From IMG/VR virus record IMGVR_UViG_3300017765_000053, positions 1-25,041 of that record: 25,041 bases of DNA; one strand, given 5' to 3'. This stretch comes from a virus. The notes beneath the pieces are model-generated. The model was not told where the DNA came from. It saw nothing but the letters and a program-made list of their open reading frames with translations, and did not search any database. A program made the position numbers and the translations under genes. Positions 9,391 through 24,470 of the stretch are shown in pieces; positions within the stretch are counted from its first letter, which is position 1, and each line of letters opens with the position of its first letter.

Positions 9391-10053
9391 TTAACCTCTT
9401 TGTGCAGTTGCTAAATTAACAGCTTTTATAGTTAAACTTATACTAGTGCTACCGCCGGTTTCATTTCCTACGATCGTAATAGTAGCTGTTTTGTCTTTTG
9501 ATAATTGTTTTCCTACTAACCTAAATCCACCTTTACTCAATGCTGCTACACTAGTAGCTTCTGCATTTGCAGAAATGCTAGGTACAGTTGGTAAAATATT
9601 ACTAGTAATTTCTTGTCCTACAGCAGATGTAATTAATGCAGTAGATGAATCAGATAAAATTGCTGAATATCCAAATGTAGAATTTGCATTATTTAATCCA
9701 AATGTCGAAGCTTGTATAACAGCTGACTGTCCTGCATTTAATGTTATACTTGTTTTGTCTACTTGTACCGTTGGTATTCTTGTTGTAGTATTATTATCTA
9801 ATGTTAGCAATCTACTTTTCATTGCTTGAGTTTCATCTGGAAGTGCTTCTGTTAATGGTAAATTTTCAATAACTATACCATAATAGTCTGTTCCTAATGA
9901 ATGATTTGGATTCCATAAATCATAATCAATTTCATCATCTGCTAACGCAAATTGTGTTATATTAAAAGATCCATCTCCTTTAGCTAGTAATTCACGTCCC
10001 TTATTTGTTAAGATTGCGTCTACTGTTACAGAAGTATTATCTAAGTATCCCAT
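9391..10053 (-). CDS. Widespread T4-like virion structural protein with Ig-like tail
   Basis: The first 90 of 220 residues (MGYLDNTSVTVDAILTNKGR, then LLAKGDGSFNITQFALADDEIDY) match a very common structural protein of marine T4-like phages as I recall it; its exact place in the virion is unknown to me. From about 95 the sequence changes to VDKTSITLNAGQSAVIQAST...ATITIVGNETGG...SLTIKAV, a bacterial Ig-like (BIG2-type) beta-sandwich, often a surface decoration. The fusion therefore looks like a conserved core plus a variable adhesion domain. A late-type element lies 20 nt before the start, followed by AAAAAAAAGGGAA as ribosome site. Confidence 0.75.
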   Translation of the reverse strand: MGYLDNTSVTVDAILTNKGRELLAKGDGSFNITQFALADDEIDYDLWNPNHSLGTDYYGIVIENLPLTEALPDETQAMKSRLLTLDNNTTTRIPTVQVDKTSITLNAGQSAVIQASTFGLNNANSTFGYSAILSDSSTALITSAVGQEITSNILPTVPSISANAEATSVAALSKGGFRLVGKQLSKDKTATITIVGNETGGSTSISLTIKAVNLATAQRG

Positions 10054-10123: not shown

Positions 10124-11800
10124 TTATCCTTTAACATCAAATAATCCTTTACTTCCAGGCGGCTCTATATATAATTTATTTCCTGTAGTTATAGAAACTT
10201 CAATAACTGGCTTTCCATCTGGAGTGTCTTTTGAATTAACATTATAATCTGGACTAGATATTTTACAGCCGTTAAATCTATGATTAGCTATTCCGGTAGG
10301 AAGATAATCTTGAAATTCAGCTACTCGTAATTCAGATCCAGTAATACCTAATTTATATCTAGTTTTGTTAAATTCTGATAATCTACTACTAGTTATGAAT
10401 AAAGATATAGCTTCTGACTCCCAATAAGGTGTAGATGATGTAACAAACGAACTGCCGGAAAAAATTATACTAGTGTGTGAATATACAGTTCCAGCATACG
10501 GATCTTTATTGGTTATTAATCTTGCATTATAATTTACAGCTGTTCCTTCTATATTAAAAAATTCTAAGTTACTATTTTGTAATTTACACTCATAATCTAT
10601 TAATGCAATACTAGTAACGTCTGTCTTAGTAGTTTCAATAGATCCAGATGCAGTTGTTTGATAAGCACCATCTATATCCGGGTTTGTATCAAATGAAGCT
10701 GACGCAATAAATTGATCGGTTGCTTCTATGAGATTATCTCCTATTACAGGCAATGAAGCTGAAGCAAATGATTGCCATTTTCCTTGCATGAGGTTATCCC
10801 CAATTACCGGTAATGAAGACGATGCAAATGATTGCCATTTGCCTTCTACAAGATTGTCTCCAACTGCAGGTAATGAAGCCGACGCAAATATCTGCACTTT
10901 GTTATCATTTATGTCTGGAGCGGCAAATAATTCTGTTACAAAATTTTCTTGAGAGCCAGATAAAATTTCAAAATCTCTGAATATATCACCTTCTGGATTC
11001 AGTCTACTTGCACTAGGAATAACAAAATCAGGTACGTGTATTTCAGATAAATGAGTTTGATTTAATTTTGATATTTCTGTTAATGCAGTGTTTTTACTTC
11101 TTTCAATAATAGTTGGCTGTATTAATAATCCTAATATTTTTTCAGATCTAGCAGGTAATAATTGTTCTAATTGCTTAAAGAAAGATAAATCAAATAAAGA
11201 AAATATTCGTAGATATGAATTCATATCATTCTTAGTTGAATATTTTTTCCAATACTCACGAGACGTATTAATTAAATCAGGGTATGTATATCTATTTTCT
11301 TTTGCACGTGGATCTCCAATTAAATCATCCAATATTGTAAATCCTAATTGAGCAATAATATCATCATTGATCATTGTTTGAGGAGAATAATATATTCCCA
11401 ACTTATTAGAATCTAAAGGAGCAGTATCAAATCCATTTCTAGTAGCTCTATTTTCTACATTTAATGTGTTAAGTAACTCAGTTGATTCAATTCTTACTTT
11501 ATTATCATCAAACGTACCGCCCCCTAATGATATTCCATCAAAATAATATGTTTCTTCTATAGAATCATATGGAGTACTATTTGTCCACGCTGGATATCCA
11601 GATCCGGTAAATGATGCTGATATAGTTGTTCCAATATCAGGTTGTACTCCAGTTAAACTACTAGTAGCTGCGTGATTAATTTTTTGAGTTAAAGGAGTTC
11701 TAAAAACTAATTCGTCATATGCATCTACATTTCCATCATATGCAGACGGAGCTTTTGTATGATTAGTATATGGAGCATCATTTAAACTACCGGTCCACAT
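10124..11800 (-). CDS. C-terminal part of split LamG/tandem-repeat virion protein
   Basis: The 558 residues from the ATG at 11800 begin MWTGSLNDAPYTNH. The frame is open further upstream to 11995, directly after the TAA that ends the 560-residue protein, and in the same frame. The start MWTGSL is the last strand of a LamG-type fold, so 11800 is unlikely to be the natural beginning of a domain. No strong ribosome site precedes it (AGGA about 20 nt away). Residues near 285-350 carry a 20-residue tandem repeat (KWQSFASASLPVIGDNL type). The remainder is Ser/Thr-rich beta sequence ending PPGSKGLFDVKG. Probably part of a large tail or fibre protein; whether it is made separately, by read-through, or not at all cannot be told here. 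Confidence 0.65.
   Translation of the reverse strand: MWTGSLNDAPYTNHTKAPSAYDGNVDAYDELVFRTPLTQKINHAATSSLTGVQPDIGTTISASFTGSGYPAWTNSTPYDSIEETYYFDGISLGGGTFDDNKVRIESTELLNTLNVENRATRNGFDTAPLDSNKLGIYYSPQTMINDDIIAQLGFTILDDLIGDPRAKENRYTYPDLINTSREYWKKYSTKNDMNSYLRIFSLFDLSFFKQLEQLLPARSEKILGLLIQPTIIERSKNTALTEISKLNQTHLSEIHVPDFVIPSASRLNPEGDIFRDFEILSGSQENFVTELFAAPDINDNKVQIFASASLPAVGDNLVEGKWQSFASSSLPVIGDNLMQGKWQSFASASLPVIGDNLIEATDQFIASASFDTNPDIDGAYQTTASGSIETTKTDVTSIALIDYECKLQNSNLEFFNIEGTAVNYNARLITNKDPYAGTVYSHTSIIFSGSSFVTSSTPYWESEAISLFITSSRLSEFNKTRYKLGITGSELRVAEFQDYLPTGIANHRFNGCKISSPDYNVNSKDTPDGKPVIEVSITTGNKLYIEPPGSKGLFDVKG
10704..10883 (-). repeat. Three 60-bp tandem repeats in the virion protein gene
   Basis: Units start at 10704, 10764 and 10824, each 60 nt, with a partial unit from 10884. 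They encode 20-residue repeats of the form WQSFASASLPVIGDNLxxGK. The two central units are most alike and the outer ones have drifted. The length is an exact multiple of three, so copy changes keep the frame. Confidence 0.85.
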
Positions 11801-11998
11801 ACGTAATTCTTGTACTTGTCCTAATAAACGACTTCCGCCAGATGTGCCTCCTATTAATACAGTCCCAGGATTAGAAAATGAGCCAGTTGCTGATGCAGAA
11901 ACAGTATTGATAATTTTTCCAAATTTTGATTTTTTTGCTAATACTTCAATACTATTATTAGAACCAGTACGTAATAATGCAGTTAAATAATCACCTTA
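11801..11998 (-). other. In-frame TAA and open continuation joining two ORFs
   Basis: The TAA at 11996-11998 ends the 560-residue protein (…SAEIEMF). The same frame then continues with 65 sense codons, GDYLTALLRTGSNNSIEVLA to GGSRLLGQVQELR, into the ATG at 11800. The 65 residues read as normal protein and complete a LamG-type fold (TALLRT strand, IEVLAKK, VLIGG, GQVQELRMW). From 13678 to 10124 there are 1184 codons with this single internal stop. The local sequence is ATG TTT TAA GGT GAT. Confidence 0.85.
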
Positions 11999-13678
11999 AA
12001 ACATTTCAATTTCAGCTGATGAAGTGCCGTTGATTTGTATTCTTCCCATTGTTCCTCTAGAAAATTCTAAAGTTACATCATTGCCGCCGGCTGAGAATAA
12101 ATTCATTGTTCCTGGAACTAATGGATTCTTTAAAACATTATCAGTTCTAAATCTTAATTCAACTGCTCCAATTGTTTGATTATAATCAACTCTAACAACA
12201 CCGGTTGTATTTTTAATTAAATCTAATGAATAATCAAAATTTAATTTTTCATATGATGGAGGCCTTTTAAGTCGTGGACCGCCATATTCTTGAATAGTTA
12301 TTAATGATTGAGGTACTCCATAACAAGCTAATAATGCTTGCACACTACGTTTAGTTCCTTTACTTTTTAATAATCCAGGAATGTTATTAACAATTCTTCG
12401 CCATATACCATATGTAACATCACGAAGTGGTAATGATGGATCTCCTACACTATTTGAACCAGTTAGTGGTGTTCCATTACTGTCAGTACCTAATGTGTAT
12501 TCCCATAAATCAGTTGATTGTGCACCATTAGTCAATTTCCATCCAAATTGTTTAGCTACAGTATATAATAATTCATTTGGCATACCTTGTTTAGGATGCT
12601 CATCTCTAGGATTAATTAAAGTCATTGCATTTATATATGTATATAATATATCATAATGATGCCCTAACATGTTAACAAATGTAGATAATTGTTCATTATT
12701 TTCATCTAACAACATGAACTCTGGAATACTTCTTATTAATCGATTATTATTTCTAAGATCATATATAGAAGCACTTTCATGTATTCTAGTATACCAAGAT
12801 TCAAAATTACTGCTTGTTACCGAATATAACTCAAACGGATAAGTACTATTAGATTTAGGAGCTGGGCTTATATAACTTCCAGTAACAAATTCTACAACTG
12901 GATTAGCTACTGGAATATCATGAGTGAATATTTTTGAAGATGAATCATAATATAAATATTGCTCAAATTGATCCATTCCTCCAATTAAATTTGTATATAA
13001 ATTATTGAAATCGGCTGCATTTGCTATAGCTGCTGATCCAGATAATAATCCAGCTGATGCAGATTGAGCAGTATAGTATTCTAATAATTCAATTTTATAT
13101 TTAAAATTATCCAATCGTTCTGTTGCTGAACTATAAAAGACAAAATTATTAAAATCACCAAAATCAATATTTAATTTAACCCCGCCTAAACTACCAGAAA
13201 AATAACTATCAATTATTTGTTGAGATGTTTGCATTGACGACCCTAATAAATCGCTCCATGATTTTAAAGTTGTTGCATTTGATGTATCTTGTTCTGCAGA
13301 AGCTTCCCAATTTGTTCCTTGCAACACATTAAATGTAATCTGATCTAATACTTCTGAAACAGAAATATTATCTACATATGGTAATTTATTTTCTCTAACA
13401 ATCCAACATTTAAAGTTTTTCTCAATATCATCATCTAGTGGTTTATATAACTTAACAAATAAATATTTTCCTACAACTACACTATTAACAAATAAATTTG
13501 TTTTATTTCTTGAAAAATTTAATAGAAAACTAAAATTATTATTGTCTGTTAATGCAGTTTGTCTTCCAGCAACATTATTAATATATTGATTAATTGATAA
13601 TAAAAATTTTGGATTAGTTTCGTCAATTGCACGTAAACGTACTTCTGTTCTATCTGGAGATATATCATCGATTGCCAT
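11996..13678 (-). CDS. Virion protein with LamG fold cut by the stop codon (N-terminal part)
   Basis: This 560-residue protein starts MAIDDISPDRTEVRLRAIDE and contains LLNFSRNKTNLFVNSVVVGK, a mixed central body, and a helical stretch around 330-400 (EFMLLDENNEQLSTFVNMLG, INPRDEHPKQGM). Residues 400-480 include RRIVNNIPGLLKSKGTKRSVQ. From about 490 a LamG-type beta fold begins (AVELRFRTDN, DVTLEFSRGTMGRIQING) but is cut at SAEIEMF. The start overlaps the stop of the upstream 125-residue gene as TAATG, so translation is probably coupled. In related phages I recall the segments corresponding to the 125-residue protein, this one and the downstream one lying in one large tail or structural protein; this is from memory and was not checked. 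Confidence 0.75.
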   Translation of the reverse strand: MAIDDISPDRTEVRLRAIDETNPKFLLSINQYINNVAGRQTALTDNNNFSFLLNFSRNKTNLFVNSVVVGKYLFVKLYKPLDDDIEKNFKCWIVRENKLPYVDNISVSEVLDQITFNVLQGTNWEASAEQDTSNATTLKSWSDLLGSSMQTSQQIIDSYFSGSLGGVKLNIDFGDFNNFVFYSSATERLDNFKYKIELLEYYTAQSASAGLLSGSAAIANAADFNNLYTNLIGGMDQFEQYLYYDSSSKIFTHDIPVANPVVEFVTGSYISPAPKSNSTYPFELYSVTSSNFESWYTRIHESASIYDLRNNNRLIRSIPEFMLLDENNEQLSTFVNMLGHHYDILYTYINAMTLINPRDEHPKQGMPNELLYTVAKQFGWKLTNGAQSTDLWEYTLGTDSNGTPLTGSNSVGDPSLPLRDVTYGIWRRIVNNIPGLLKSKGTKRSVQALLACYGVPQSLITIQEYGGPRLKRPPSYEKLNFDYSLDLIKNTTGVVRVDYNQTIGAVELRFRTDNVLKNPLVPGTMNLFSAGGNDVTLEFSRGTMGRIQINGTSSAEIEMF

Positions 13679-14055
13679 TAATGGGGCATTATAACTTCAA
13701 GTATATTTACAAAAAAGTTTAATATTATTCTATAATTGCCAGATGTTAATTCTAACTTTCTAAGTTCTTGACTTAAATTAAATTTAACAGGACTTGTTAA
13801 TTGTATTTGAGCTCCATCTTTAGTAAAAGCTGCTTGATCAAAATTTTCAAGATCTACTTTGTGTTTTCCAGTAATCCATGTATCTCCAGAATAAACATGA
13901 AATTCATTTGATGCATTAGCAGTCCCTAGATTTACTTCACCATATTGAAATAACGATTTTTTAAATAGATCTAGATCGTTTGCATCATACCTCTCAGCAT
14001 TAGTTGCTTTTGATTCATTTAAAAGTTTATCTTTATTTGTGTACTGCGTTAACAT
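13678..14055 (-). CDS. Small structural protein, probable N-terminal piece of the large LamG protein
   Basis: This 125-residue protein has a YSGDTWITGKHKVD segment and ends VKFNLSQELRKLELTSGNYR then IILNFFVNILEVIMPH. It overlaps the next gene by one base (TAATG) and the two frames differ by -1. The end of this protein and the DISPDRTEVRLR start of the next read like consecutive parts of one structural protein, which suggests an ancestral gene that has been split, with coupled translation replacing covalent linkage. I see no convincing slippery heptamer at the junction. Upstream there is only a weak match to the late element (TAATACTTAG, 14064-14073) and no strong ribosome site. Confidence 0.6.
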   Translation of the reverse strand: MLTQYTNKDKLLNESKATNAERYDANDLDLFKKSLFQYGEVNLGTANASNEFHVYSGDTWITGKHKVDLENFDQAAFTKDGAQIQLTSPVKFNLSQELRKLELTSGNYRIILNFFVNILEVIMPH

Positions 14056-23732: not shown

Positions 23733-24470
23733 TTAATCAATTTCAGGATTCTGTTCTGCTAAATTCTTTAAAGCACTTTTTTTAGTAGCTTTTGCTTTTG
23801 GTGAAACAGGCTTTGGAGAATTATTTTTAAAACTTCTCCATCTTTCATATTCTATTTGAGAAGCCATATGATCTGCGTGATGTAATAATAATGGCAAATT
23901 AGTTTTTAATTTAGCTTGTGCTGATCTTGCAATAAAATATGGTTTATTAGCATCATCATATATTCCATCATGTATTCTAATAGCTTGAAATTCATTCCAC
24001 GACATTTGAATTTGATATTTTTGAAGTAAATATATTGAAAGATCTGGTACCATACTAAAAGGAATATTTTCATTATGTTTATACATCCTTCCCATATTTT
24101 TTCTATGCCAATCTGATGTTTCAACTTGGTATACTTCTCTTCCGCTTCCTGGAAATCCACATTTCCCTAAATCATGATGCATAGCAGCAAACATCATTTC
24201 ATTATATTCATAACCAGACATATCCGATCCCATACTTTCCCATGAGTTATATAGTTTTTCTACACAATCCATTACTCTAAGAACGTGATCTATATATCCG
24301 CCTGCAAATGCATTATGATAATGTGCTACTGACGAAGCAGGCATCATTACAATTCTGTCTTCATATTCATCATATAATTTATTTAATTTGTCTGCTCTTT
24401 CTGGAAATAAAGTATTAACTCTATTTCTATACTCGTCCCAGTTGGATTTGATTTTTTCTGCTTCTAACAT
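23733..24470 (-). CDS. HD-domain metal-dependent phosphohydrolase
   Basis: The 245 residues carry an HD-type metal site: His62 in YIDHVLRV, HHD 98-100 in AAMHHDLGKCGF, His167-Asp168 in AIRIHDGIYDD, and H197 H198 x D200 H201 in LLLHHADHMAS. HD enzymes hydrolyse phosphoester bonds in nucleotides or cyclic dinucleotides. Similar proteins occur in many T4-like marine phages with unknown substrate; a nucleotide or signal-molecule substrate is inferred only from the fold. The C-terminal 30 residues are Lys/Pro-rich and probably disordered. The ATG has no Shine-Dalgarno sequence but an A-rich leader (AAATAAAAAT). Confidence 0.8.
   Translation of the reverse strand: MLEAEKIKSNWDEYRNRVNTLFPERADKLNKLYDEYEDRIVMMPASSVAHYHNAFAGGYIDHVLRVMDCVEKLYNSWESMGSDMSGYEYNEMMFAAMHHDLGKCGFPGSGREVYQVETSDWHRKNMGRMYKHNENIPFSMVPDLSIYLLQKYQIQMSWNEFQAIRIHDGIYDDANKPYFIARSAQAKLKTNLPLLLHHADHMASQIEYERWRSFKNNSPKPVSPKAKATKKSALKNLAEQNPEID

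Follow-up and report, generated by a model that had tools for sequence, protein, structure and literature searches.

A Premature TAA in a Baseplate-Region Gene of a Metagenomic Phage Contig: Probably an Error Rather Than Read-Through

Introduction

Does an in-frame TAA in the middle of a long phage gene mark programmed read-through, a gene that is naturally split, a gene that has been disabled, or simply an error in the sequence? The question is raised by a virus record of 25,041 bases, the whole of which is referred to here as the window. On its minus strand, a frame runs from an ATG at 13678 to a closing TAA at 10124, and its sole in-frame stop is a TAA at 11998-11996, which is codon 561 counted from that ATG. 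The first ATG on the 3' side of this stop lies at 11800.

The original prediction, made from the window alone, described this frame as open save for the one TAA, held that the codons after the stop read as good protein, and listed read-through, recoding, a natural nonsense mutation, and a one-base error as options. ORF reading confirms the single stop, and the sequence beyond it aligns unbroken, as coding sequence, with relatives. The coordinates of all features are collected in Table 1.

Table 1. Features of the interrupted gene and of the third private lesion in the window
Feature	Position	Strand	Basis
Single baseplate-region structural gene (suggested role); 1,310 aa in G001, three ORFs in the window	10124..14055	-	G001 ORF and near relatives
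N-terminal fragment ORF, 125 aa; last 6 residues (EVIMPH) out of frame after the deletion	13678..14055	-	
Private one-base deletion (GG to G), frameshift	13698..13699	-	Extra G in relatives
Middle fragment ORF, 560 aa	11996..13678	-	Internal Met to TAA
In-frame TAA; GAA (Glu) in nearest relatives; codon 687 of the intact protein	11996..11998	-	
C-terminal fragment ORF, 558 aa, opening at the first ATG after the TAA and not preceded by an evident Shine-Dalgarno sequence	10124..11800	-	
HD-type phosphohydrolase-like gene: private nonsense change (AAA to TAA) close to its 3' end	23733..23735	-	Relatives

The Stop Position in Relatives

A scan of viral contigs with the 560-aa product returned 374 relatives, of which the best 80 were fetched and 77 align across the stop. 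The sense codon that the original prediction had proposed looking for in related phages is present in all 77 of these spanning relatives: GAA (Glu) in the nearest, including the near-identical contigs, and GAT or GAC (Asp) or AAT or AAC (Asn) in others. Homologues that end at the stop and then restart, whose existence had also been considered, are absent among the same 77. When the flanking DNA was used as a search pattern that allowed any base at the first codon position, 12 viral contigs matched and 12/12 carry GAA, so that this search recovered the TAA form from no other contig. Compared with the GAA of the relatives, the TAA is a single private G>T substitution on the coding strand.

The nearest long relative, the uncultivated phage contig IMGVR_UViG_3300017746_000085 (hereafter G001), shares 20.1 kb with the window at 99.86% identity and differs from it by 27 mismatches and a single indel in that stretch. 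Both G001 and L093 (IMGVR_UViG_3300017725_003051) possess the same gene with the same neighbours and a sense codon at the position, but unlike the window they have an uninterrupted frame that lacks the TAA at 11998 as well as a deletion at 13699, described below; the frame of L093 is cut by the contig end only. Across 66,689 codons of the structural gene in relatives, internal stops are absent.

A Second Break and the Extent of the Gene

The same gene is broken a second time. Near 13699, some 20 bases 5' of the ATG at 13678, the minus strand of the window lacks one G (GG to G), and the resulting frameshift splits off the first ~120 codons. The missing G is the only indel between the window and G001. 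The extra G at 13698-13699 is present in G001, L093, and a third contig (G013), the frame across this point is intact in 11/11 relatives checked, and a pattern scan of viral contigs for the deleted form matched no other contig, the deletion being private to the window. Where relatives read ...NILGSYNAPLMAIDD... straight through, the window reads ...NILEVIMPH*, and the stop that closes this shifted frame overlaps the ATG at 13678 as TAATG.

In G001, a single ORF of 1311 codons (1,310 aa), ending at the same stop place, occupies the region in which the window has three ORFs, and in other near relatives the frame is likewise open across both joins. Judged by these comparisons, the gene starts at 14055, upstream of the frameshift deletion, and the ATG at 13678 encodes an internal Met. 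The original prediction was wrong in beginning the frame at 13678. Its joined frame of 1184 codons is indeed open apart from the TAA, but it is not the whole gene, as the N-terminal ~120 codons have been split off.

Gene Identity and the LamG-Like Fold

A search of Pfam and PHROG profiles gave no family that names the structural gene itself. The same profiles identify baseplate wedge proteins among the neighbouring genes, and these neighbours suggest a structural role in the baseplate region. Distant homologues are found in hypothetical proteins of the Flavobacterium phages vB_FspM_immuto (28% identity over 92% of the 560-aa query) and of Microcystis phage Mel-JY01 (35% identity over 71% of it); these alignments end at residues 517 and 468, respectively, and neither reaches the stop.

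The original prediction proposed that the stop cuts through a LamG-type fold, and both the fold and its interruption gain support. The Pfam profile Laminin_G_3 matches 33/44 homologous stretches (E <= 0.1; best E 1.5e-4), each match being weak, while neither the window's own halves alone nor the intact G001 stretch alone gives a Pfam match. Residues 600-900 of the G001 protein, in which Glu 687 is model position 88, were modelled using AlphaFold2. The first 170 residues of the model form a confident two-sheet jelly roll (block pLDDT 78-96 over residues 11-170), with strands at 79-85 before the site and at 92-98, 103-112, 115-125, 132-136, and 147-155 after it, and the stop site sits between strands 79-85 and 92-98.

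Foldseek returned the pentraxin 3flp as the best solved match (E 1.5e-6, probability 1.00), though with modest TM-scores (0.36-0.47) and 16% sequence identity; the best viral match is an uncultured Caudovirales phage homologue. A profile search of solved structures by sequence gave no match. Taken with the profile matches of the homologues, the Foldseek result supports a predicted LamG-like (concanavalin A-like) jelly-roll domain that spans the stop position.

Within the C-terminal part of the protein, a 60-base tandem repeat of 2.8 copies (window 10723-10889) encodes a 20-residue repeat (..KWQSFASASLPVIGDNL..). The alignments of relatives break up near this repeat and their gene lengths differ, so its copy number may vary.

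Elsewhere in the window, the single ORF at 1008-4109 matches a metallophosphoesterase (Pfam PF00149) and an SbcC-like subunit (phrog_77) and is apparently an SbcD-SbcC fusion. Its counterpart in the relatives L095 and G008 is also 1033 aa long and contains no internal stops.

Private Changes in the Window

A third lesion is found in an HD-type phosphohydrolase-like gene, where a TAA at 23735 shortens the ORF by 15 codons relative to that of G001. The codon affected, number 246, is a sense codon in 80/80 relatives. This nonsense change lies outside the structural gene, yet it is the same kind of lesion. Three stops in relatives of the HD-type gene were considered as further lesions and rejected, as they are at or adjoin the natural C-terminus.

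Substitutions were counted as private when they occur in the window only and all relatives agree, which polarises them, and more near-identical contigs were added for this purpose. There are 11 such changes, namely eight missense, two nonsense, and one silent, whereas 8.7, 0.6, and 1.7, respectively, would be expected with no selection under the same mutation spectrum. The window's private changes show no trace of purifying selection. That these genes are normally under such selection can be seen from the divergence from a relative of 93% identity, which comprises 341 silent versus 143 missense single-change codons.

The private changes of five close relatives amount to 6 missense, 7 silent, and 0 nonsense. 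The comparison of non-silent with silent changes between the window and these relatives gives a Fisher one-sided p of 0.027, a value to be read in the light of only 11 window changes and of contigs that are not independent. The excess of the window's private-change rate over that of the relatives, taken alone, is not significant (p = 0.07). Disrupting changes number 3 in ~6,300 codons of the window when it is compared with G001, and 0 within the gene body in ~86,560 codons of the two genes in relatives, which again are not independent. Finally, every one of the 8 private changes that affect a G or C falls on a coding-strand G (6 G>A and 2 G>T; p = 0.01), and this one-sided spectrum may stem from DNA damage, platform bias, or a real mutational bias.

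Error, Mutation, or Read-Through

We infer, with a probability of roughly 70%, that the TAA arose through an error of sequencing or of the consensus (assembly) in the metagenomic contig. It belongs to a set of private changes scattered over the contig: 11 substitutions, two of them nonsense, and the frameshift deletion that hits the structural gene as well. What points to error is the unselected pattern of these changes, along with the presence of two independent lesions in a single gene on an otherwise near-identical background. Residual indel errors have been documented in polished long-read viral assemblies (PMC6487183), which may not be the platform of this record.

Nor is the window the only record with such a lesion. 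A TGA at 9683-9685 interrupts the DNA primase gene of G008 (L096, IMGVR_UViG_3300021365_000085), where the near-identical contig G009 (L187) has a Leu codon. It was rejected as a shared feature, being private to G008, and as an isolated private stop it indicates that lesions of this kind recur in the collection.

The strongest competitor to an error, possible but clearly less probable, is that the changes are true private mutations, the window representing a single defective phage genome, or a minor lineage, whose copy of the gene is disabled by the frameshift and the nonsense mutation. Such a genome is also predicted to have private changes that resemble unselected mutation, and a single-clone or single-molecule source could capture it. 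However, several disabling events would be needed without other decay (three lesions, two of them in one gene), on a background that matches an intact contig at 99.86% identity. A consensus assembly, moreover, normally shows the majority allele, which counts against a minor defective form. Were the genome truly defective, there would be no functional gene product unless co-infecting intact phages complement it. It is very improbable that a rare subpopulation with real disabling mutations persists through complementation in mixed infections or through suppression of the TAA in a suppressor host.

Programmed or suppressor-mediated read-through of the TAA, or its recoding, would yield a minor long form of the tail or baseplate protein. 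Beyond the stop the sequence reads well as coding sequence and continues the same fold, as this explanation would have it, but we give it hardly any credence. The stop is found in 0/77 spanning relatives and is absent even at 99.9% identity, so conservation of the stop in related genes is lacking. Nor is the frame open from the true start at 14055, since the deletion near 13699 intervenes; read-through would leave this upstream frameshift unrepaired, and the protein would lack its first ~120 residues. As for recoding, TAA terminates most ORFs in both the window and G001, in keeping with the original view that the other TAA codons act as ordinary stops, and both internal TAA codons in the window are private. 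No tRNA genes were found in the 25 kb window, and a literature search for UAA read-through in phages gave nothing bearing on this case, judged by titles.

The least credible explanation is a natural split of the gene into subunits with restarts at 13678 and 11800, since, although ATG codons exist at both places (the former in the TAATG overlap), homologues neither end nor restart at either, 0/77 spanning relatives are split, the stop lies within a single jelly-roll domain, translation would skip the 65 codons between 11996 and 11800, and a restart at 11800 was rejected as having no evident Shine-Dalgarno sequence before it and being unused in homologues.

Of the options listed in the original prediction, a nonsense mutation or a one-base error is therefore compatible with the sense codon in 77/77 relatives, whereas read-through and recoding find no support. 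The TAA is real in the record, but most likely it is ordinary in meaning and does not reveal a new way of reading genes.

Implications for Annotation

For annotation, we recommend treating the three ORFs at 14055-10124 as parts of a single broken gene. The case shows that a lone in-frame stop in a phage contig from a metagenome can mimic read-through, and that such look-alikes are settled by comparing relatives and weighing silent against non-silent private changes. In the phage itself, normal translation of the gene very probably yields a single ~1,310-aa protein containing a LamG-like domain.
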